A DNA stretch of 64,000 nucleotides from Solirubrobacter phytolaccae. GTDB taxonomy: Bacteria; Actinomycetota; Thermoleophilia; Solirubrobacterales; Solirubrobacteraceae. Numbering within the stretch: the first letter of the stretch is position 1; every line of letters starts with the position of its first letter. Shown here in pieces: positions 1,207 to 11,626 of the stretch. The stretch spans positions 1-64,000 of the forward strand of contig NZ_JAPDDP010000002.1 of the NCBI RefSeq assembly GCF_027587195.1. Direction: 5' to 3'. Below the pieces are notes generated by a model. That model was not told the origin of the DNA and ran no database searches. It was given only the letters and a program-made list of their open reading frames with translations. The position numbers and the translations under genes are program-made.

Positions 1207-3954
1207 GTGATCGAGCGCGACTCCGAGCTCGCGGCGGTGCGCGACACACTCGACCGAGCCTCGGCGGGCGACGGGTCGCTCGTGCTGATCGAGGGCCCGC
1301 CGGGCAGCGGCCGCACGTGCCTGCTCGACGCCACCCGCACCGAGGCGCGCGAGCGCGGGATGACGGTCCTCACGGCGCGCGCGAGCGAGCTCGAGCAGAC
1401 GTTCGCGTTCGGCGTGATCCGCCAGCTGTTCGAGCGGGAGCTGCTCGGCGCGTCCGCGGACCGGCGCGCGGAGCTGCTGTCGGGCGCGGCGGGGCTGGCC
1501 GCCCCGGCGATCGGGCTCGACGGCACCGCGCCCGCCGTGGTCGACGCGCCGTTCTCGATCCTGCACGGCCTGCACTGGCTGACCGCGGCCTTCGAGCCGG
1601 TGCTCGTCGCCGTCGACGACGTCCACTGGGCGGACCAGGCGAGCCTGCGCGCGCTGCTGTACATCGCGGCGCGGCTCGAGGGGCAGTCGATCGCGATCGT
1701 CGTCACCGCGCGCACGGGGCCGGCCCCGCTCCTCGACGAGCTCACCGTCGCGGCCCGACAGGTCCTGCGACCCGCACCTCTCTCCCGCGCCGGGGTCGCG
1801 GCGTTCCTGGGCGAGGAGCCGGACTCCGAGCTCGTCGCCGCGGCGGAGCGCGCGACGGGCGGCACGCCGTTCCTGCTCTCCGAGCTCGCGCGGGCGCTGC
1901 CGGCCGACCCCGCCGACATCGAGCGGCTGGGCTCCCGCGCGCTGACGGCGTCCGTGCTGCTGCGGCTCAGCCGACTGCCTGCGCACGCCACCGCCGTCGC
2001 CCGCGCGGTCGCGCTCCTCGACGGCCACGCCGAGCTGCACCACGTGGCGACGCTCGCAAACCTCGACGACGCGCGGCCGAGCGTCGCGGCGCTCGTCGAA
2101 GCCGGCTTCCTGCGCCCCGGCCGCCCGCTCGCGTTCGCGCAGACGATGGTGCGCGAGTGCGTGCTCGAAGGGCTCACGGAGGCCGAGCGCGCCGGCCTGC
2201 ACGCGCGGGCCGCGGGCCTGCTGCGCGACGCCGGCCTGCGCGCGGACGTGCTCGCCCCGCACCTGCTGGCCGCGGAGCCCGGCGGGGACGCGGAGGTCGT
2301 GCGCCTGCTCCGCGCGGCGTCGGCGCGCGCGATGCGCCAGGGCGCCCCCGAGCTCGCGCGCACGTACCTGCGCCGCGCGCTGCGCGAACCGCCCGCGGCA
2401 GACGCCATGGCCGCCGTCCTCAGCGAGCTGGGCGAGGCCGAGTGGTCCTGCGGCGACGACCTCGAAGCCGCGACCGAGCACCTGCGCGAAGCGCTCGCCC
2501 GCACGGAGGACCCGGCGCTGCGCCCAGCGCGTGCGCTCGCGCTGCACCAAGCCGTGTTCGTCTCCGGCCGCCTAGTCGAGGCCTACGAGCTGCTGGAGGG
2601 GGAGATCGACCGCCTGACGGGTGTCGTCGACCCCGAGGACGTGTGGCGGCTGGAGGCGGCGCTGTCCTCGATCGGGCTGCTGAACCCGGTGACGGTCGGC
2701 CGCGCGAACGCGCGCCTCGCCCGCTTCGAGAGCCTCTCCGGCGACACGCCCGGGGAGCTGCTCCAGCTCGCGAACGTCGCGTGCTGGAAGTGGGCGGCGG
2801 GGACCGCCGCGGAGACGGTCGAGCACGGCCGCCGGGCGCTCGCCGCCGCGCGCGTGCAGGCCGCGGACGCCGCGGACTCGATCCCGATCTACGAGGCGCT
2901 GTGGGTGCTCACCTACGCCGACGCGCACGAGCTGGTGCTGTCGGTGCTCGAGGACACGCTCACCGACGCGCGGGCCCGCGGGTCGGTCTTCGGCATCTCG
3001 ACCTCGTGCGCGCTGCGCGCCCTGATCGCCTGGCAGCGCGGGGACGTGACGCTCGCCGAGCAGGAGGCGCGCACGGCCGCGGGGCTGCCCGGGTTGTCGG
3101 ACTTCGTGCGTCCGCCGCTGTTCGGGACGCTCGCACTCGCACTCGTCGCGCGCGGTGATCTCGAAGGGGCCGAGGCGGCGATCGGGGAGAGCGGCTGCGG
3201 CCCGGCGCTCCCGCAGTTCGTGTGCCTGAACCCCGCGTTCTACGCGCGCGGCGTGCTGCGGGCGGCGCAGGGCCGTGTCGACGAAGCGCTCGCGGACTTC
3301 ACCGAGTTCGGCGAGCGCTCCGCACGGATCAACCTGCGCAACCCCGGCGACCCGTGGCGATTGGGCGCGGCCGAGTGCCTCCTGCGCCAGGGCGGCGAGG
3401 TGGAGGCGCGGCGGCTCGTGGACGAGCAGGTCGAGCTCGCCCGGCGCTGGGGGACCGCGTCCGCGCTCGGCATCGCGCTGCACGGGCAGGCGCTCGCGTG
3501 CGGGACCGACGTCCGGCTGCTCGGCGCCGCGGCGGCCGTGCTGGAGGAGTCCCCGGCGCGGCTGGACCACGCGCGCTGCCTGGTCGACCTCGGCGCGGCG
3601 CTGCGGCGGGCGAACCAGCGCTCCTCGGCGCGTGAGCCGTTGCGGGAAGGACTCGAGCTCGCCCGCCGGTGCGGCGCCGACGCGCTCGCTCAGCGCGCCC
3701 ACGACGAGCTGGTCGTGGCCGGCGGCCGGCCACGCCGACTGATGTTCAGCGGCCCGGAGGCGCTGACGCCTAGCGAGCGGCGCGTGGCCGAGCTGGCCGG
3801 CGACGGGCTGAGCAGCCGCGAGATCGCGCAGCAGCTGTTCGTGACCACCAAGACGGTCGACAACCACCTCGCCCGCGTGTATGGCAAGCTCGGGATCTCG
3901 ACGCGCGGGAAGCTCGCGGAGGCGCTGCGGGAGACCGCGGAAGAACTCGCGTAA
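1207..3954 (+). CDS. ATP-binding LuxR-family (LAL/MalT-like) transcriptional regulator
   Basis: This 915-residue protein has an N-terminal AAA/STAND ATPase domain, a long helical tetratricopeptide-like middle and a C-terminal LuxR helix-turn-helix at about residues 851-912 (LTPSERRVAELAGDG...SREIAQQL...VDNHLARVYGKLG). The P-loop at residues 30-37 reads GPPGSGRT: the invariant lysine is arginine (codon CGC). Walker B is VAVDDVHWAD at about 134-143. Family members activate catabolic or secondary-metabolism genes on binding a ligand plus ATP; the ligand here is unknown. Start is GTG 1207. It is divergent from a paralogue with an intact P-loop, so the pair could share one control region. Nucleotide hydrolysis may be weakened by the K-to-R change; this is inference. 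Confidence 0.92.
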   Translation: MIERDSELAAVRDTLDRASAGDGSLVLIEGPPGSGRTCLLDATRTEARERGMTVLTARASELEQTFAFGVIRQLFERELLGASADRRAELLSGAAGLAAPAIGLDGTAPAVVDAPFSILHGLHWLTAAFEPVLVAVDDVHWADQASLRALLYIAARLEGQSIAIVVTARTGPAPLLDELTVAARQVLRPAPLSRAGVAAFLGEEPDSELVAAAERATGGTPFLLSELARALPADPADIERLGSRALTASVLLRLSRLPAHATAVARAVALLDGHAELHHVATLANLDDARPSVAALVEAGFLRPGRPLAFAQTMVRECVLEGLTEAERAGLHARAAGLLRDAGLRADVLAPHLLAAEPGGDAEVVRLLRAASARAMRQGAPELARTYLRRALREPPAADAMAAVLSELGEAEWSCGDDLEAATEHLREALARTEDPALRPARALALHQAVFVSGRLVEAYELLEGEIDRLTGVVDPEDVWRLEAALSSIGLLNPVTVGRANARLARFESLSGDTPGELLQLANVACWKWAAGTAAETVEHGRRALAAARVQAADAADSIPIYEALWVLTYADAHELVLSVLEDTLTDARARGSVFGISTSCALRALIAWQRGDVTLAEQEARTAAGLPGLSDFVRPPLFGTLALALVARGDLEGAEAAIGESGCGPALPQFVCLNPAFYARGVLRAAQGRVDEALADFTEFGERSARINLRNPGDPWRLGAAECLLRQGGEVEARRLVDEQVELARRWGTASALGIALHGQALACGTDVRLLGAAAAVLEESPARLDHARCLVDLGAALRRANQRSSAREPLREGLELARRCGADALAQRAHDELVVAGGRPRRLMFSGPEALTPSERRVAELAGDGLSSREIAQQLFVTTKTVDNHLARVYGKLGISTRGKLAEALRETAEELA

Positions 3955-4019: not shown

Positions 4020-4706
4020 ATGCTTCGTCCCTCTCCCGCCATGGTCGTCGCCGTCGTCGCGCTCGTCGCCTCGCTCGGCGGCACGTCCTACGCCGCCGCG
4101 ACGCTCGCCAAGAACAGCGTCGGCAGCCCGCAGCTGAAGACCGGCGCCGTCAAGACCGCCGACCTCGGTGCCAACGCGGTGACCGCGGCCAAGGTCAAGA
4201 ACGGCTCGCTCCTGGCCGCCGACTTCAAGGCCGGCCAGCTGCCCGCCGGCCCGGCGGGCGTGGCCGGCCCCGCGGGTCCCGCCGGCCCGGCCGGCGCCAC
4301 CGGTCCCGCGGGTCCGGCCGGTCCGATCGGCCCGAGCACCGCGCTGCTCGCCGAGAAGGACACGCACAACGTCGGCATTTCGGCCGTCTCGCACACGGTC
4401 CTGACCCAGACGCTCGCGGCCGGCGACTACACGTTCCTGGTGTCCGCCGGCCTCGAGAACACGAGCGGCTCCGCGGGTGAGTTCACGTGCGCGATCATCG
4501 AGCCGATCGGCAACGACTTCACTGCCACGCTCGGCGAGGTCGTGGTCACGCTCGAGGACAACGAGAAGGCGGGGGTCAGCATCGTCGGCGCGACGCACAC
4601 CGACGGCGCGACGGTCGAGCTCAACTGCGACTCCACCGGCGGCGGCCAGTTCGCCACGGTCACCGAGCCGCGGCTGATCTCGACGCGGGTCGGCTCGGTC
4701 GGCTGA
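4020..4706 (+). CDS. Secreted collagen-like repeat protein
   Basis: A 228-residue protein. A hydrophobic N-terminal segment (residues 8-27) ending SYAAA suggests a signal peptide. Residues about 29-72 form short Asn/Ala/Gly/Lys-rich repeats (NSVGSPQLKTGAVKTADLG and similar) that look like a beta-solenoid stalk. Residues about 76-105 are ten Gly-X-Y triplets, mostly GPA. A roughly 120-residue C-terminal domain with two cysteines (probably a disulfide) is likely a globular beta domain. This arrangement is common in Thermoleophilia, where the proteins are secreted or surface-attached; no enzymatic role is evident. A clear GGAGG lies 8-9 bases before the ATG. The gene stands alone, 65 bp after the LuxR regulator, and converges on the next gene. 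Confidence 0.85.
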   Translation: MLRPSPAMVVAVVALVASLGGTSYAAATLAKNSVGSPQLKTGAVKTADLGANAVTAAKVKNGSLLAADFKAGQLPAGPAGVAGPAGPAGPAGATGPAGPAGPIGPSTALLAEKDTHNVGISAVSHTVLTQTLAAGDYTFLVSAGLENTSGSAGEFTCAIIEPIGNDFTATLGEVVVTLEDNEKAGVSIVGATHTDGATVELNCDSTGGGQFATVTEPRLISTRVGSVG

Positions 4707-4718
4707 TCCGGGCGGGGG

Positions 4719-5183
4719 TCACCACGCGCCGGCGACCTGGCGCGTGGCCGCGTTGACCCGGTTCCAGACGTTGATCTGGGCGATGTCGAGCACGAGCGCG
4801 GCCCGCTGCGGCTCGTCGAAGTGCTCGCTGACCTCGTCCCAGAGCTCGTCCGGAACCGGGTCCGCGGTGTCCGCCAGCCGCGTCAGCGCCTCGGTCAGCG
4901 CGAACGCCGCGCGCTCCGCGTCGGTGAAGTAGGGCGAGTCGCGCCAGGCGCCGACGGCGAACACGCGCTCCTCGCTCTCGCCGCCCTTGCGCGCGCCCTT
5001 GGCGTGCATGTCCACGCACACGCTGCAGCCGTTGATCTGGCTGGCGCGGAGGTGGATCAGCTCACGCGAGATCGGCAGGCGGGCGCGGCTGATCGCCGTG
5101 TTGAGCGCCTGCAGGGCGTCGAGCGCGCCGTCGGTCGAGACGGCGGGGTTGGCCTGGCGGGCGGTCAGGGTCGTGGTCGACAT
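4719..5183 (-). CDS. Carboxymuconolactone decarboxylase / AhpD-like protein
   Basis: This 154-residue protein carries the AhpD-type redox motif E-x11-C-x2-C-x3-H exactly: Glu41, Cys53, Cys56 and His60 (NGCSVCVDMH). AhpD-family proteins use this pair as a disulfide reductase or peroxidase centre rather than for true decarboxylation. It faces an ECF41-type sigma factor gene; this pairing of ECF41 sigma with a CMD, oxidoreductase or epimerase gene is well known, and the enzyme gene is normally the sigma target. A matching promoter candidate lies 47-73 bases upstream of the start. The physiological substrate is unknown; an oxidative-stress role is inferred. Confidence 0.9.
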   Translation of the reverse strand: MSTTTLTARQANPAVSTDGALDALQALNTAISRARLPISRELIHLRASQINGCSVCVDMHAKGARKGGESEERVFAVGAWRDSPYFTDAERAAFALTEALTRLADTADPVPDELWDEVSEHFDEPQRAALVLDIAQINVWNRVNAATRQVAGAW

Positions 5184-5194
5184 CGTGAGCTCCT

Positions 5195-5221
5195 TGTCAC
5201 GTCGGTCGGTTGGCGTCGGTC
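5195..5221 (+). promoter_or_regulatory. Candidate ECF41-type promoter for the sigma factor gene
   Basis: TGTCACG (5195-5201), 16 bases, then GGTC (5218-5221), about 43 bp before the sigma factor ATG. This resembles the known ECF41 pattern, TGTCACA in the -35 region and CGTC in the -10 region, with one mismatch in each box. It mirrors the site on the other strand and suggests autoregulation. Confidence 0.5.
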
Positions 5222-5229
5222 AACACCTC

Positions 5230-5256
5230 GACCAACCGAATCGCGAGGATGTGACA
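5230..5256 (-). promoter_or_regulatory. Candidate ECF41-type promoter for the CMD/AhpD-like gene
   Basis: Reading leftwards, TGTCACA (5256-5250) is a perfect -35 match to the ECF41 motif, followed after 16 bases by GGTC (5233-5230; consensus CGTC). The CMD start codon is 46 bp further on. The same spacer length on both strands supports a divergent, sigma-controlled promoter pair. Confidence 0.6.
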
Positions 5257-5263
5257 GAACCCG

Positions 5264-6112
5264 ATGAACGAGCTCTTCGAGCAGCACCGCCAGCAGTTGC
5301 ACGCCGTCGCCTTCCGCATCCTCGGCTCCCGCTCGGAAGCCGACGACGCGCTGCAGGAAGCCTGGCTCCGCGTCAGTCGCTCCGGCATGGACGGCGTCGA
5401 GAACTCCGCCGCGTGGCTCACCACGGTCGTCTCCCGCGTGTGCCTGACGATGCTCGACAGCCGCAAGCGCCGCCGCGAGGAGGACGGCCACCTGCCCGAC
5501 ATGATCGTCACCCGTGTCGACGAGGCGGCGCCGGACCCGGAACGCGAGGCGCTGCTCGCCGACGCGGTCGGCAGCGCGCTGACGATCGTGCTTGACACGC
5601 TCTCGCCGGCCGAGCGGATCGCGTTCGTCCTGCACGACCTGTTCGGCCTGCCGTTCGACGACATCGCCCGCGTGCTCGACCGGTCCCCCGACGCCGCGCG
5701 TCAGCTGGCGAGCCGCGCGCGGCGCCGCGTCCGGGGCGGCGACCCCGAGACGGCGGGTGCGGACCGCGCGGTCGTCAACGCGTTCCTCGCGGCGGCGCGC
5801 GGCGGGTCGCTCGAAGACCTGCTCGCGCTCCTCGATCCGGAGATCGTCCTGCGCGCCGACTTCGGCACGGGCGTCCTGCACGTCCGCTCGGGTCCGGAGT
5901 CGGTGGCCGCCGGCGCCCGTGCGATCGGCCCGACCCGCGCACTCCCGGAGCCGATCCTCGCCGACGGCCTCCCCGCGGTGCTCGTCTACGCGGACGGCGC
6001 GCCGGAGCGGATCATGCGCTTCACGCTACGCGCCGGCCGGATCGCCGCGATCGACGTGCTGGCCGAGCCGTCACGGGTCGCGCGGCTCGTCGGTCAGGCT
6101 TGGAGCGGCTAG
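5264..6112 (+). CDS. ECF41-type RNA polymerase sigma factor with C-terminal NTF2/SnoaL-like domain
   Basis: A 282-residue protein. Residues 1-75 form region 2 (LFEQHRQQLHAVAFRILGS...ADDALQEAWLR) and about 100-165 form region 4 (LDTLSPAERIAFVLHDLFG...SPDAARQLASRARRR). Residues about 170-280 are a SnoaL/NTF2-like extension, the hallmark of the ECF41 group, in which the extension replaces a separate anti-sigma factor. The DGGGK-type loop of typical ECF41 proteins reads DFGTG here, and the end reads EPSRVARLVGQ. It is divergent from its likely target, the AhpD-like gene. The stop codon sits in a CTAG palindrome shared with the stop of the next, convergent gene. The signal sensed is unknown. Confidence 0.92.
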   Translation: MNELFEQHRQQLHAVAFRILGSRSEADDALQEAWLRVSRSGMDGVENSAAWLTTVVSRVCLTMLDSRKRRREEDGHLPDMIVTRVDEAAPDPEREALLADAVGSALTIVLDTLSPAERIAFVLHDLFGLPFDDIARVLDRSPDAARQLASRARRRVRGGDPETAGADRAVVNAFLAAARGGSLEDLLALLDPEIVLRADFGTGVLHVRSGPESVAAGARAIGPTRALPEPILADGLPAVLVYADGAPERIMRFTLRAGRIAAIDVLAEPSRVARLVGQAWSG

Positions 6113-7013: not shown

Positions 7014-8423
7014 CTACGCCGCCGCCCGGCGACTAGGCAGGAGCAGCGCCGGGATCAGCGCCACGCCGGCCAGGCCGACCGTCCACCAGAAGGTCGTGGC
7101 GAACGCCGCGGTGGCGTCGGCCTCGCCGGCGAGCGCGTGCTGGAGGATCACGGCGAGGACGGCGGTGCCGAGCGAGCCGCCGATCTGCTGGATGATCCGC
7201 ATCGAGGCGGTCGCGCGCGGGATCTCGGCGCGGGAGATGTCGGCGTAGAACGCGGTCATGGTCGGCACGATCGCCAAGCCGAGGCCGGCGCCGCGGACGA
7301 ACAACGCGGCCCCGAGCAACAGCTCGCTCGTCCCCGTCTCGACCAGCGCGTAGGGAAGCGTCGAGAGCGTGCCCAGGGCGAGGCCGGTCAGCACGAGGAT
7401 GCGGGGCGCGATCCGGTCGCTCAGGCGGCCGGCGATCACGAGCGCGATCATCGTGCCCGCGCCCTGCGGTGCGAGCAGCAGGCCGGCCTGCAGCGCGCTG
7501 CGGTCGCGCGCGACCTGCTCGAACAGCGGCAGCAGGAACATCGCGCCGAACAGCGAGCCGCCGAGCGCGAACATCAGGCCGGTCGAGGCGGCGAAGGAAC
7601 GGACCTTCAGCAGGCGGACGTCGATGATCGGGACGTTGCTGGTGCGCAGCGCGTGGACGACGAAGCCGGTCAGGAGCGCGAGGCCGATGCCCAGCGGGAC
7701 GAGCACGCTCGACGCCCCGAAGCCGCCGGCGTCACCCGCCTGTGAGAGCCCGTAGACGATCCCCGCGAGCGCGGGTGAGAGCAGCGCCAGGCCCGTGAAG
7801 TCCAGGCGCGACCGCGTGTTCTCGTGGCGCGTGTCCGGCATCCAGCGCCAGGCCAGGGCGAGCGCGACCAGGCAGACCGGCACGTTCACGAAGAAGATCC
7901 AGCGCCAGCTCGCGCCGTCGACGATCAGGCCGCCGACCACCGGGCCGAGGATCGGGCCGAGCTGCGCGGGGATCGCGACGATCGCCATCGCGCGCCCGAT
8001 CCGCTTCGGTCCCGCCGCCTGGGCGAGGATCGACTGCATCAGCGGCACCAGCATCCCGCCGCCGAGGCCCTGCACGACCCGGAACGCGATCAGGCTCTCC
8101 GCCGACCACGCGAGGCCGCACAGCACCGAGCCGCCGAGGAAGCCGGTGAGCGAGAACATCCACATCCGCCGCCCGCCGAACCGGTCGACCGCCCAGCCGG
8201 TCAGCGGGATCGCCACCGTCAGCGCCAGCAGGTAGCCCGTGGACACCCACTGGATGGTCGAGAGCGTGGTGCCGAGCTCGTCGCCCAGCCGGTCGATCGC
8301 CACGGCGACGATCGTGGTGTCGAGGATCGCGGCGATCGCGCCCAGCAGCAGGACCGCCGAGAGCCGCAGCAGCTCGGGGGTCAGGCCCGTCTCGTCTTCG
8401 TGCGTCATCGGAACAGCGCTCAT
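7014..8423 (-). CDS. MFS drug exporter, DHA2 (14-TM) family
   Basis: 469 residues from ATG 8423 (an alternative ATG at 8408 starts at MTHEDE). It carries the MFS motif A (GWAVDRFGGRRMW) between the second and third membrane segments, and the early DTTIVAVAIDRLG motif typical of DHA2 proton-coupled drug exporters. Hydrophobicity fits about 14 membrane segments, and the length is normal for the group. It is divergent from a TetR repressor gene, and two identical-architecture palindromes lie between them, the nearer one 3 bp before this start, so repression by that TetR protein is likely. The exported compound cannot be told from sequence. Confidence 0.92.
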   Translation of the reverse strand: MSAVPMTHEDETGLTPELLRLSAVLLLGAIAAILDTTIVAVAIDRLGDELGTTLSTIQWVSTGYLLALTVAIPLTGWAVDRFGGRRMWMFSLTGFLGGSVLCGLAWSAESLIAFRVVQGLGGGMLVPLMQSILAQAAGPKRIGRAMAIVAIPAQLGPILGPVVGGLIVDGASWRWIFFVNVPVCLVALALAWRWMPDTRHENTRSRLDFTGLALLSPALAGIVYGLSQAGDAGGFGASSVLVPLGIGLALLTGFVVHALRTSNVPIIDVRLLKVRSFAASTGLMFALGGSLFGAMFLLPLFEQVARDRSALQAGLLLAPQGAGTMIALVIAGRLSDRIAPRILVLTGLALGTLSTLPYALVETGTSELLLGAALFVRGAGLGLAIVPTMTAFYADISRAEIPRATASMRIIQQIGGSLGTAVLAVILQHALAGEADATAAFATTFWWTVGLAGVALIPALLLPSRRAAA

Positions 8424-8425
8424 GG

Positions 8426-8461
8426 CGATACACCGTATCGCAAGAACGATACGGCGTATCG
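8426..8461. promoter_or_regulatory. Paired TetR operators between the MFS exporter and tetR genes
   Basis: Two perfect 15-bp palindromes, CGATAC-ACC-GTATCG at 8426-8440 and CGATAC-GGC-GTATCG at 8447-8461, have centres 21 bp apart, about two helical turns. They sit between divergent exporter and TetR genes, where one repressor could control both directions. The spacing suits cooperative binding of two dimers on one DNA face. Confidence 0.85.
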
Positions 8462-8481
8462 GCGAGGTACGATGAGCCCGC

Positions 8482-9066
8482 ATGCCGACCGCCTCCAGCC
8501 GCAGCGAGCGTCCGGCCTTGACCCGCGACGCGATCGTGGCCAAGGCGGTCGAGATCGCCGACGCGGAAGGGCTCGACGCGGTCTCCATCCGGCGCCTGGC
8601 CGCCGACCTCCCGGCGCGGCCGATGAGCCTCTACAACCACATCACCGACAAGCAGGAGCTCGTCGGCCTGATGCTCGACCGGATCATCGACGAGGGCCTG
8701 ATCGGCGACGCGCTCTCCCCCGACTGGCGCGAGGCGATGCGCCAGATCGCCCGCTCCGCCCGCGCCGCCGCCGAGCGCCACCCCTGGCTCACGATCGGCC
8801 TCGGCGCCACCCGCGCGCAGCGCGAGAGCTTCCACCGCCATCACGAGGAGTCGCTGCGCGCGCTCGCCGGCCTCCGCGCGTCCGACGCCGACAAGCGCCG
8901 CCTGCTGCTCGCGGTCGACTCCTTCACCTGGGGCCACGTCGCGATGGAAGCCGCCCGCCGCTCCGAGGCCCTGGCCGCCATGCAGATCCCGGATGACGGC
9001 TTCGAAGTCGGCCTGGAGTGGATCCTCGCGGGCGCCGCCGCGGCGCTCGGCGAGCCGCCCCTTTAG
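8482..9066 (+). CDS. TetR-family repressor of the MFS exporter
   Basis: A 194-residue protein. Its N-terminal helix-turn-helix (about residues 13-60; AIVAKAVEIADAEG...SIRRLAADL...LYNHITDKQEL) is typical TetR. The C-terminal ligand domain resembles the TetR_C group with WREAMRQIARSARAAAERHPWL and a conserved HHEESLRAL stretch. It starts 20 bp after the second of two palindromic operators shared with the divergent exporter gene, so it probably represses both itself and the exporter and is released by the exported drug. The stop codon overlaps the stop of the convergent arsC by 4 bp. Confidence 0.9.
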   Translation: MPTASSRSERPALTRDAIVAKAVEIADAEGLDAVSIRRLAADLPARPMSLYNHITDKQELVGLMLDRIIDEGLIGDALSPDWREAMRQIARSARAAAERHPWLTIGLGATRAQRESFHRHHEESLRALAGLRASDADKRRLLLAVDSFTWGHVAMEAARRSEALAAMQIPDDGFEVGLEWILAGAAAALGEPPL

Positions 9067-9455
9067 AGCTCGTCCAGCAGCGCGCGGACCCGCGCGCTGA
9101 TCTCGTCGCGCGTTGCCCGGACCTCGTCGAGCGGGCGGCCCTTCGGGTCGGGGAGGTCCCAGTCGACGTAGCGCTTGCCCGGGATGTACGGGCACGTGTC
9201 GCCGCAGCCCATGGTCACGACGAGGTCAGCCCGCGCCGCCAACTCGTGCGTGAGCCGCTGCGGGCGGCGATCGGCGATGTCGACGCCGAGCTCGGCCATG
9301 GCGGCCACGACCTCGGGATGGACATGCCCCTCGGGGTCGGCGACGCTGCCGGCGGACTCCGCCGTGTGACGGCCGGCGGCGGCGTGCTCGAACAGCGCCT
9401 GGCTCATCTGCGAGCGGCCGGCGTTGTGGAGGCAGACGAACAGGACGTGGCTCAT
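9063..9455 (-). CDS. arsC: Arsenate reductase, low-molecular-weight phosphatase type
   Basis: A 130-residue protein with the phosphatase-like active site CLHNAGRS (Cys8 to Arg14, C-x5-R) at the N-terminus. Further cysteines in VTMGCGDTCPYIPGK are the candidate redox partners of thioredoxin- or mycothiol-dependent ArsC, followed by the conserved DWDLPDPKGRP loop. It reduces cytoplasmic arsenate to arsenite. Its start overlaps the end of aqpS by 4 bp, so the two are cotranscribed. In this island the reduced product can leave through AqpS or be methylated by ArsM. Confidence 0.95.
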   Translation of the reverse strand: MSHVLFVCLHNAGRSQMSQALFEHAAAGRHTAESAGSVADPEGHVHPEVVAAMAELGVDIADRRPQRLTHELAARADLVVTMGCGDTCPYIPGKRYVDWDLPDPKGRPLDEVRATRDEISARVRALLDEL

Positions 9456-10108
9456 GGATAGAGGGCTCGGATCAGGCCGAGCGCCAAGCCGGCGCCGGCG
9501 AGTTGGGCGAGGATGAACGTCGGGACCGAGGCCGGGGCGATGCCGGCGAACGTGTCCGAGAGCGTGCGGCCGATCGTGATCGCGGGGTTGGCGAAGCTGG
9601 TCGAGCTGGTGAACCAGTAGGCCGCGCCGATGTAGGCGCCGACCGCGGCGGGGACGGTCGCGAGCCGGCTTGTGCGGGCGAGGCTGAAGATCACCAGCAG
9701 CAGCCCCGCGGTCGCGACGACCTCGGCGAGCAGGTGCGGCCCGCTCGCGCGGTGGTGCTCGGAGACGCTGATCGCGGCGAGGCCGAACATGCCGTTCGCG
9801 AGCACCGCGCCGGACGCGCAGCCCACGATCTGCACGGGGATGTACGCGGCGACGTCACGCCAGGGCCTGCCGCCGAGCGCCGCGTCGACGAGCGAGACGA
9901 CCGGATTGAAGTGCGCGCCCGAGACCGGGCCGAAGATCAGGATCAGCGCGTACAGGCCCGCGGCGGTCGCGGCCGCGTTCTCGAGCAGCTGCAGCCCGAC
10001 GTCGTCGGACAGCCGCTGGGCGGCGATCCCCGACCCGATCACGAGCGCGGCCAGTAGCGCGCTGCCGAGGAACTCGGCGAGCAGGCGTCTCGGAAGCGGC
10101 GCGGTCAC
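9452..10108 (-). CDS. aqpS: Aquaglyceroporin of the arsenic operon
   Basis: A 218-residue MIP-family channel. The two half-helix pore motifs are HFNPVVS (about residue 67) and FANPAITIG (about residue 172), with about six membrane segments. In place of ArsB or Acr3, some bacteria use an aquaglyceroporin that lets arsenite run out down its gradient after ArsC has reduced arsenate; the coupling of this gene to arsC by a 4-bp overlap fits that scheme. It is divergent from arsR-arsM and starts 10 bp from a symmetrical dyad that is probably the ArsR operator. Glycerol or other metalloids could also be substrates. Confidence 0.9.
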   Translation of the reverse strand: MTAPLPRRLLAEFLGSALLAALVIGSGIAAQRLSDDVGLQLLENAAATAAGLYALILIFGPVSGAHFNPVVSLVDAALGGRPWRDVAAYIPVQIVGCASGAVLANGMFGLAAISVSEHHRASGPHLLAEVVATAGLLLVIFSLARTSRLATVPAAVGAYIGAAYWFTSSTSFANPAITIGRTLSDTFAGIAPASVPTFILAQLAGAGLALGLIRALYP

Positions 10109-10117
10109 GGGTTGGAG

Positions 10118-10149
10118 CCTATTCCATTGACAAACGTCACTTCAATAGG
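10118..10149. promoter_or_regulatory. Candidate ArsR operator with embedded -35 element
   Basis: A 32-bp dyad: CCTATT, 4 nt, TGAC, 4 nt centre, GTCA, 4 nt, AATAGG, with both halves perfect and equally spaced. It lies between the divergent aqpS-arsC and arsR-arsM operons. A consensus TTGACA (10127-10132) inside it can serve as the -35 box towards arsR, so bound ArsR would block transcription. The AT content is high for this genome. Confidence 0.75.
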
Positions 10150-10162
10150 TAGTTGTAAATAG

Positions 10163-10516
10163 ATGGCTGTCGATCTGGAGCTCGCACCGAAGACCAAGCG
10201 CCCGGCGGGTGAGCCGTGCTGCGAGCCGGTCGTCTATCCCGACATCGACCGCGAACGTGCCGCGCGTATGGCCGAAGTGGCGAAGGCGCTCGGTGACCCG
10301 GTCCGCCTCCAGCTCGTGGACGTCCTGCGCAAGCACGCCGGCAAGGTCTGCGTCTGCGAGCTCGTGCCGCTGTTCGACATCTCCCAGCCCACCCTCTCGC
10401 ACCACCTCAAGAAGCTCCGCGACGCGGGCATCGTGGACAGCGAGCGCCGCGGGCTGTGGGCCTACTACTACGTCCTCCCCGACGCACTGCAGGAGCTGAC
10501 CGCATGGCTGAGCTGA
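10163..10516 (+). CDS. arsR: ArsR-family metalloid-responsive repressor
   Basis: A 117-residue winged-helix protein: LGDPVRLQLVDVLRKHAGKVCVCELVPLF then SQPTLSHHLKKLRDAGIV. Cysteines in KVCVCEL at the start of the recognition region, plus an N-terminal Cys-Cys pair (EPCCEP), are candidate arsenite ligands. It should repress both divergent operons and release DNA on arsenite binding. The ATG lies 13 bp after the dyad operator, giving a very short leader. Its end overlaps arsM by 13 bp, so the two are translationally coupled. Confidence 0.95.
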   Translation: MAVDLELAPKTKRPAGEPCCEPVVYPDIDRERAARMAEVAKALGDPVRLQLVDVLRKHAGKVCVCELVPLFDISQPTLSHHLKKLRDAGIVDSERRGLWAYYYVLPDALQELTAWLS

Positions 10517-11277
10517 CCAACCCCGACGAGCTGCGCGAGACCGTTCGTGCCCGGTACGCCGCCGCGGCGGTCGCCACCACCTCCACGGAGGGCGGCGGCT
10601 GTTGCGGGCCCGACGCAGCCGTGATCACCGACGAGCAGGCCGAGCTGTTCGGCCGCGGGCTGTACGCCGACGGCGACCAGGAGGAGCTCCCGGAAGCGGC
10701 GCTCATCGCCTCGCTCGGCTGCGGCAACCCGACCGCGATGGCCGACCTGCGCGACGGCATGACCGTCCTCGACCTCGGCTCCGGCGGCGGCATCGACGTG
10801 CTCCTCTCCGCCCGTCGTGTCGCGCCGTCCGGCACCGCCTACGGGCTCGACATGACCGACGAGATGCTCGCGCTCGCCCGGGCCAACCAAGCGAAGTCCG
10901 GCGTCACCAACGTGCACTGGCTCAAGGGCCAGATCGAAGCGATCCCGCTCCCGGCCGAGAGCGTCGACGTCGTCCTCTCCAACTGCGTCGTCAACCTCTC
11001 CACCGACAAGCCCACGGTGCTGCGCGAGGCCGCCCGTGTGCTGAAGCCCGGCGGCGCCTTCGCCATCTCGGACGTGATCGCCGACCCCGACATGGACGCC
11101 GCCACCCGCGAGGACATGCAGCAGTACGTCGGCTGCATCGCGGGCGCGCTGACGCGGGACGAGTTCGAGCGCTACCTCGCCGACGCGGGCTTGGTCGACA
11201 TCGAGATCACCGAGACGCACCGCGTGCACGAGTCCGCCGGTTCCGCGATCATCAAGGCGCGCAAGCCGCCGCTCTAG
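10504..11277 (+). CDS. arsM: Arsenite S-adenosylmethionine methyltransferase
   Basis: 257 residues from ATG 10504, which lies inside the 3' end of arsR. The SAM-binding motif is [12 protein letters not shown] (about residues 88-99). Cysteines expected for arsenite binding are present: Cys33/34 (GGGCCGP), Cys73 (LGCGNPTA), Cys161 (LSNCVVNLS) and Cys211 (YVGCIAGAL). The enzyme methylates As(III) to mono-, di- and trimethyl forms, some volatile. Within this island it supplies a second route for removing arsenite besides AqpS. There is no arsB or acr3 nearby. Confidence 0.94.
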
Positions 11278-11287
11278 GATCGGCCGG

Positions 11288-11626
11288 ATGTCCGAGCCGG
11301 TCTGCCCTTCCTGTGCCAGCGAGCACACCTACGAGCTCAACGGTCTCCTCGTGTGCTCCATGTGCGCCCACGAGTGGTCGCCGGACGCCGAGACCGAGGC
11401 CGAGCCGGTCATCCGCGACGCCGTCGGCAACGTGCTCGCCGACGGCGACACGGTGACGGTCGTCAAGGCGCTCAAGGTCAAGGGCAGCGCGAGCGGCATC
11501 AAGGCCGGCACGAAGGTCCGCAACATCCGGCTCGTCAACGGCGTCGGCGACCACGACATCGATTGCAAGGTCGACGGCATCGGCCCGATGCAGCTCAAGT
11601 CGAGCGTCGTCAAGAAGCTGTCGTAG
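11288..11626 (+). CDS. PhnA/YjdM-type zinc-ribbon protein
   Basis: A 112-residue protein. An N-terminal zinc ribbon (CPSC at residues 6-9 and CSMC at 23-26) is followed by the PhnA domain ([23 protein letters not shown]...[12 protein letters not shown]...[22 protein letters not shown]). It is full length for the YjdM/PhnA family. Despite the old name, these are not proven phosphonoacetate hydrolases; the exact role is unclear. It lies 10 bp after arsM and could be read through from that operon, though no arsenic role is known. A hairpin follows its stop codon. Confidence 0.9.

Follow-up and report, generated by a model that had tools for sequence, protein, structure and literature searches.

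Sigma factors of the ECF41 group, which belong to the extracytoplasmic function (ECF) family and carry a C-terminal SnoaL-like extension, recognise a promoter published as TGTCACA-n16-CGTC, and the available text of that work describes the neighboring COE genes, encoding a carboxymuconolactone decarboxylase (CMD), an oxidoreductase or an epimerase, as their only known targets (Wecke et al., 2012; PMC3426412). The same source counts, among 55 loci of the <ECF< >COE> arrangement, a motif before the ECF gene in 36 and before the COE gene in 41, 'often both', so that the idea of two-gene control, and thereby of autoregulation, is not new. We consider here a 62-bp element at positions 5195-5256 of a 64,000-nucleotide stretch of the Solirubrobacter phytolaccae genome (the window), in which two promoters of this type stand as mirror images between an ECF41-like sigma factor gene and an AhpD-like CMD gene. 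The initial annotation of the locus gave control of the partner gene only as the usual ECF41 account, which agrees with the published statement on targets but not with the motif published before both genes. The face-to-face overlap of the promoters, their fixed gap, their association with a lineage that lacks the classical ECF41 signatures and the exchangeable partners were not found in the literature searched, which left most subscription papers outside.

In common with the ECF41 group (PMC3426412, in the text available), the window has the -35, the spacer and the -10, the C-terminal SnoaL-like extension, the CMD/oxidoreductase/epimerase neighbor and the motif before both genes, and each half of the element matches the published promoter apart from usual variation. 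However, promoter pairs in the window lineage often lie face-to-face at 8-11 bp, whereas the classical loci read are back-to-back or single, and the lineage lacks the motifs YVGPWLPEP, DGGGK and NPDKL and includes MFS and ABC partners outside the COE set. A resemblance is also apparent to the sigma-70 bidirectional promoters of Warman, Grainger and co-workers (PMC12825309, PMC10268837), for which the accessible portions give divergent transcription start sites (TSSs) 7-25 bp apart, compared with a predicted 9 bp here. Those promoters use one shared, near-symmetric -10, usually with 18 bp between the TSSs; such a shared -10 was not found in the window element, where two separate -10s lie 8 bp apart, and the alternative sigma factor for which this element would be specific is also the product of one of the two genes. 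In the HrpL/hrpJ pair of Pseudomonas syringae (PMC5263251), an ECF sigma gene likewise diverges from its target, and holoenzyme bound at the promoter of that target hampers transcription of the sigma gene, but hrpL has a sigma-54 promoter, so that the feedback is negative, and the portions available describe no mirror-image ECF promoters. Finally, the SMb20029-rpoE9 operon of Sinorhizobium meliloti has the same motif before a CMD gene, with a TSS 9 nt downstream (PMC6180224, PMC3616915); as far as these sources are available, its genes are co-directional and share one promoter, with no divergence.

The 62-bp element is best read as a mirror-symmetric bidirectional promoter that would be used by the sigma factor of the adjoining gene in two mutually exclusive orientations, a reading to which we assign a probability of about 0.72. 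It lies in the 80-bp intergenic region between the divergent CMD/AhpD-like and ECF sigma genes, with the sigma-directed promoter TGTCACG-N16-GGTC at 5195-5221 (plus strand) and the partner-directed promoter TGTCACA-N16-GGTC at 5256-5230 (minus strand). The features of the locus are as follows.

4719..5183, minus strand: partner gene, AhpD-like carboxymuconolactone decarboxylase (CMD) family protein, 154 aa, with CSVC as its CxxC (Pfam, TIGR00778)
5190..5195, minus strand: AAGGAG, probable Shine-Dalgarno (SD) sequence of the partner gene, directly adjoining the -35 of the sigma promoter (from sequence)
5195..5201, plus strand: -35 of the sigma-directed promoter, TGTCACG (from sequence, aligned with relatives)
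5206..5239: inverted repeat TCGGTTGG/CCAACCGA, arms 5206-5213 and 5232-5239, probably incidental
5218..5221, plus strand: -10 of the sigma-directed promoter, GGTC (from sequence and relatives)
5221, minus strand: predicted 5' end of the partner mRNA, a G at +9 relative to the -10, giving a 38-nt leader (transferred from S. meliloti rpoE9)
5222..5229: gap separating the two -10s, 8 bp, centre of the mirror axis at 5225.5
5230, plus strand: predicted 5' end of the sigma mRNA, a G at +9 relative to the -10, giving a 34-nt leader (transferred from S. meliloti rpoE9)
5230..5233, minus strand: -10 of the partner-directed promoter, GGTC (from sequence and relatives)
5245..5249, plus strand: probable SD sequence GAGGA of the sigma gene, within the partner-promoter spacer (from sequence)
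5250..5256, minus strand: -35 of the partner-directed promoter, TGTCACA, between the SD of the sigma gene and its ATG
5264..6112, plus strand: ECF sigma factor gene, SigJ/ECF41-like, with C-terminal SnoaL/NTF2-like extension, 282 aa

The equally spaced TGTCAC[AG]-N16-GGTC motifs that the initial annotation placed on the two strands are indeed present, and the distance of about 45 bp that it gave to each start codon holds well (~42 bp from the end of the -10 on the sigma side and ~47 bp on the partner side). The promoters do not point apart, as had been thought, but face each other, with the -10s innermost, 8 bp apart, and the -35s outermost, so that each transcript would cross the opposite promoter. 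The window contains no perfect copy besides these two, compared with 0.04 expected from dinucleotide shuffles, which never contained two. A face-to-face pair is seen a single time in the window, in none of 100 shuffles and only this once in the 7.7 Mb genome. A single motif with one mismatch is found at chance level (3 in the window versus 2.97 expected), and the strength of the observation therefore rests on the perfect pair and its conservation.

Conservation in related genomes, an outcome that had been proposed as a check, is found in family and phylum samples and in a DNA-only survey of three phylum samples. At E <= 1e-50, protein-anchored relatives were present in 51 of 146 genomes of the family sample (68 places) and in 41 of 296 genomes of the phylum sample (52 places, of which 49 were additional to the family loci). 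Upstream pairs that match 15 or more of the 16 core letters are seen in 44 of the 68 family loci and in 16 of the 49 phylum loci outside the family, compared with 0/68 and 0/52 for an in-gene control and 1/1360 and 0/1040 for shuffles. When perfect cores were counted at 113 lineage loci, with the gap free to vary from 0 to 40 bp and four classical-motif proteins (L094, L095, L176, L179) left out, the face-to-face pair was present in 61, with a -10 gap of 8-11 bp in 59 of these. Conversely, none of the 30 classical ECF41 loci read (query L029; 61 places) is face-to-face, the four of them that carry both motifs are all back-to-back, and the pair was not found in the four further classical loci within the samples. 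With the pair in 0 of 34 classical-signature loci and in 61 of 113 lineage loci (Fisher p 6e-10), the mirror promoter thus appears, from sequence comparison, to mark a sister lineage to classical ECF41. A FastTree phylogeny built on 181 sigma proteins groups together the 37 that carry classical motifs (3 changes versus 34 when shuffled). None of these 37 has the pair, which accompanies 88 of the 144 non-classical proteins, a set including loci picked by the pattern itself. A related-locus search of the genome contigs returned 4 relatives only. Six of 160 records of named plasmid relatives were examined; a perfect pair is present in two Rhizobium loci and was not found in the remaining four, which are from three Streptomycetaceae and one Nonomuraea. 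The Streptomyces/Nonomuraea relatives L245, L246 and L248 (~1108) have only a sigma-directed GTCAC-N18-GTC, and a CMD gene lies co-directionally downstream in L245 and L248.

The pair can also be recovered from DNA alone. The pattern GTCAC-N18-GTC-N(4-16)-GAC-N18-GTGAC occurs in 39 of 396 genomes of the window's own phylum (44 places), in 18 of 151 genomes of the phylum of G533 (titled Candidatus Dormiibacterota; 19 places) and in 13 of 299 genomes of the phylum of G534 (titled Rhodopseudomonas; 13 places); the reversed pattern was found in one genome each of the G533 and G534 samples, and none was seen in the own-phylum sample. A SigJ-like sigma gene adjoins 55 of the 75 readable places (one of the 76 was without a locus), made up of 28 of 42 in the own phylum together with the window and G017, both known from the protein-anchored sample, 16 of 18 in the G533 sample and 9 of 13 in the G534 sample. 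The gap is 8-11 bp in 52 of these 55 sites versus 5 of the 20 sites without a sigma gene, one of which (L130) is at a contig end. Furthermore, all nine sigma-linked sites of the G534 sample combine a gap of 8 bp with an AhpD homologue opposite. The pair is a DNA signature that leads, without annotation, to sigma factors of this type and to the probable effectors beside them.

The two halves of the element vary together, as illustrated by a symmetry test on 56 distinct elements with 5000 shuffles. The first base of the -10, which is G, C or T among relatives, is alike in both halves of 40 elements (22.1 expected), and the base preceding the -10 in 37 (18.9 expected), neither value being reached in any shuffle. 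Most other spacer positions showed no match between halves in the 56 elements, and overall spacer symmetry is slight (296 matches versus 263 expected), deriving mainly from the bases adjoining the -10. These matching -10 variants would fit one sigma factor reading both halves. The inverted repeat TCGGTTGG/CCAACCGA, previously thought to join the promoters, is real, but its axis at 5222.5 is 3 bp off the promoter axis at 5225.5 and it recurs clearly only in L031, the nearest of the aligned relatives; it was rejected both as a joining element and as shared architecture.

The partner gene of the window encodes a CMD protein (Pfam PF02627, 63.4 bits against a cut-off of 23; TIGR00778 above cut-off), likely a redox enzyme. 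Across loci, the pair is present in 55 of 83 divergent arrangements versus 3 of 29 co-directional ones (Fisher p 1.8e-7, from crude open reading frame (ORF) calls and ignoring kinship). Divergent partners among the 20 neighbors run against Pfam as examples include CMD, NmrA/NAD-binding/epimerase, FMN reductase, MFS transporters, ABC ATPases and a polyketide-cyclase-like protein. The core is constant across such unrelated partners, and its spread is therefore not just that of a single gene pair passed on as a unit.

The sigma protein matches Sigma70_r2 and Sigma70_r4_2 of Pfam above cut-off with no region 3 hit, a sigma2/sigma4 architecture without sigma3. Its closest solved relative is SigJ (5xe7; E 1.6e-34, residues 5-271), and a fold search with its AlphaFold model (mean pLDDT 63.7) ranks SigJ first, followed by SigG1 and NTF2-like folds. 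Although the Pfam SnoaL_2 match by itself is under cut-off (20.7 versus 27 bits), the whole-length SigJ match and the fold search indicate the C-terminal SnoaL-like extension of ECF41, and TGTCACA-N16-GGTC before the CMD gene is an ECF41-type promoter at a neighboring COE gene. In the linker of the window protein, YVGPWLPEP was not found and DGHLPDMIV is present; in the C-terminal region, DGGGK, which is a motif of the ECF41 group, and NPDKL were not found, with DFGTG and AEPSRV there. The NPDKL motif is given in the accessible text of PMC7730460. The protein is also under the NCBI curated cut-offs for SigJ (NF007214, 210.4 versus 271 bits) and SigX4 (TIGR02957, 184.2 versus 323). The ECF41 label first attached to the locus thus suits its promoters, but the protein, lacking the classical signatures, is on its sequence ECF41-like rather than a proven ECF41 member. 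Paralogues in the same genome (L002, L003, L004) carry WLPEP-type linkers. At L004, the sigma gene is succeeded in the same direction by TGTCACG-N16-GGTC at 2334-2360 (minus strand reading) and an ORF, presumably NmrA-like, which is the ordinary ECF41 layout.

The geometry suggests how the element might work. The +9 offset of the rpoE9 promoter, when applied here, places each predicted start on a G, at 5230 and at 5221 (9 bp apart), and both leaders begin GACC. The +1 G of either predicted transcript would then be paired with the final C of the other promoter's -10, a coincidence exact for a gap of 8 only. A G is also the reported ECF41 transcript start in B. licheniformis and R. sphaeroides (PMC3426412, available portion). 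The holoenzyme would bind the 62-bp element in either of two opposite orientations; with the -10s 8 bp apart, both would melt nearly identical base pairs, so that binding in one orientation should exclude the other. Such exclusion is described for sigma-70 bidirectional promoters, with competition when one direction is strong (PMC12825309, in the text available). Each round of transcription would then yield either sigma mRNA, as positive feedback, or partner mRNA, giving positive autoregulation with a gain limited by the factor's own output promoter. The initial proposal that one sigma factor controls both genes is favored by the multi-phylum conservation, the fixed geometry and the matching -10 variants, but this control could be 'simultaneous' only over time or across a population, since the two promoters should exclude each other on one DNA copy.

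Several observations weigh against this bidirectional promoter. The evidence for it is entirely sequence-derived, the start sites are carried over from one Sinorhizobium promoter, the +1/-10 coincidence is inexact at gaps of 9-11 bp, and the covariation test ignores relatedness among loci. No face-to-face pair is present in 52 of the 113 lineage loci, 13 of which have both motifs arranged differently, the remainder having the sigma-directed motif only (15), the partner-directed motif only (6) or neither (18). In L032, L040 and L044, which have a perfect or near-perfect pair, the nearest upstream ORF looks co-directional, and the outward promoter would be antisense or serve an unseen gene. Moreover, for the related ECF56 factor SigG1 of S. 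tsukubaensis, the accessible text reports no autoregulation peak (PMC7730460).

The most serious competing explanation, though an unlikely one, is that two ordinary promoters for the same sigma factor overlap simply by virtue of a short intergenic region, the geometry reflecting compaction and inheritance with no functional coupling. The 80-bp intergenic region of the window would suit this, as would gap classes that look lineage-specific (11 bp only in family f18, 10 bp mainly with a CMD of 32% identity). Yet the gap is still 8-11 bp where the partner start is ~120-200 bp away (123-196 in L038, L042, L054, L066, L067, L072 and others), it is kept with other partner families and in three phylum samples, and a back-to-back layout is seen at every classical ECF41 locus that carries both motifs (4/4). 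Less probable again, and distinctly improbable, is that one direction alone, probably the partner's, is an active sigma-dependent promoter, the other half being unused or weak. ECF41 factors studied so far are reported to control the COE gene or operon only (PMC3426412, available portion), and the sigma-side -35 here ends in G rather than A; however, the base after GTCAC, which the scan did not demand, is A in 51 and 47 of 56 elements on the two sides, and the sigma-directed motif alone is commoner than the partner-directed one alone (15 versus 6 of 113). It is very improbable that a dimeric regulator of both genes uses the palindrome as its operator, in place of a pair of sigma promoters: the halves do match symmetrically around the -10s (positions 21-23), but a gap varying by 1-3 bp is more readily reconciled with promoters than with the rigid site of a dimer, both halves contain the -35/-10 and spacer established by experiment for ECF41, and the sites stay beside the sigma gene while the opposite gene changes. 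Chance resemblance, for which the unremarkable frequency of the one-mismatch motif might be cited, has a negligible likelihood, being refuted by the protein-anchored and DNA-only surveys in addition to the two perfect matches against 0.04 expected.

If the element is indeed a bidirectional promoter with exclusive orientations, self-amplification and output would compete for the same DNA, a simple possible brake in which the regulator:effector ratio is set in DNA. ECF sigma factors usually amplify their own synthesis, the classical ones being restrained by an anti-sigma factor; to our knowledge, ECF41 types have none. Bidirectional promoters, so far a sigma-70 matter in the sources cited, would also be extended to an alternative sigma factor, and their spacing would obey a strict, testable rule. 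Whether a SnoaL-type ECF lineage, present in three phylum samples or more, possesses a palindromic promoter class of its own, in which each -10 would be the opposite initially transcribed sequence, forcing a sigma-or-effector choice on each polymerase, with the core kept while effectors (redox enzymes, MFS/ABC exporters) are swapped, and would thus constitute a modular self-limiting feedback switch, we judge to be evenly balanced.

In the alignment, the partner-side spacer is pyrimidine-rich in relatives where the sigma-gene SD sits. The locus of Rhizobium sp. BT03 (QMO80_RS27275/RS27280) has a perfect pair with the -10s 8 bp apart, and its sigma gene is annotated to begin two bases after the reversed partner -35. 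RNA structure in the two window leaders showed no excess over shuffles (z 1.28 and -0.62). The sigma leaders of L244 (1108-1171) and the window (5245-5266) both read SD-ATGTGACA-ATG, the reversed -35 making an ATG-TGA start-stop immediately 5' of the true start codon.

Elsewhere in the window, a secreted-looking protein with a collagen-like GPAGPAG stretch (4020-4706) lies downstream of a large AAA/LuxR regulator (1207-3954), and a DHA2/EmrB-type MFS efflux gene (minus strand) adjoins a divergent TetR-family gene (plus strand) at 7014-9066, their listed ORF starts overlapping. An arsenic-type cluster at 9063-11626 comprises an arsC-like reductase and an MIP aquaporin on the minus strand and an ArsR regulator, ArsM and YjdM/PhnA on the plus strand, the ArsM arsenite methyltransferase being above its curated cut-off.
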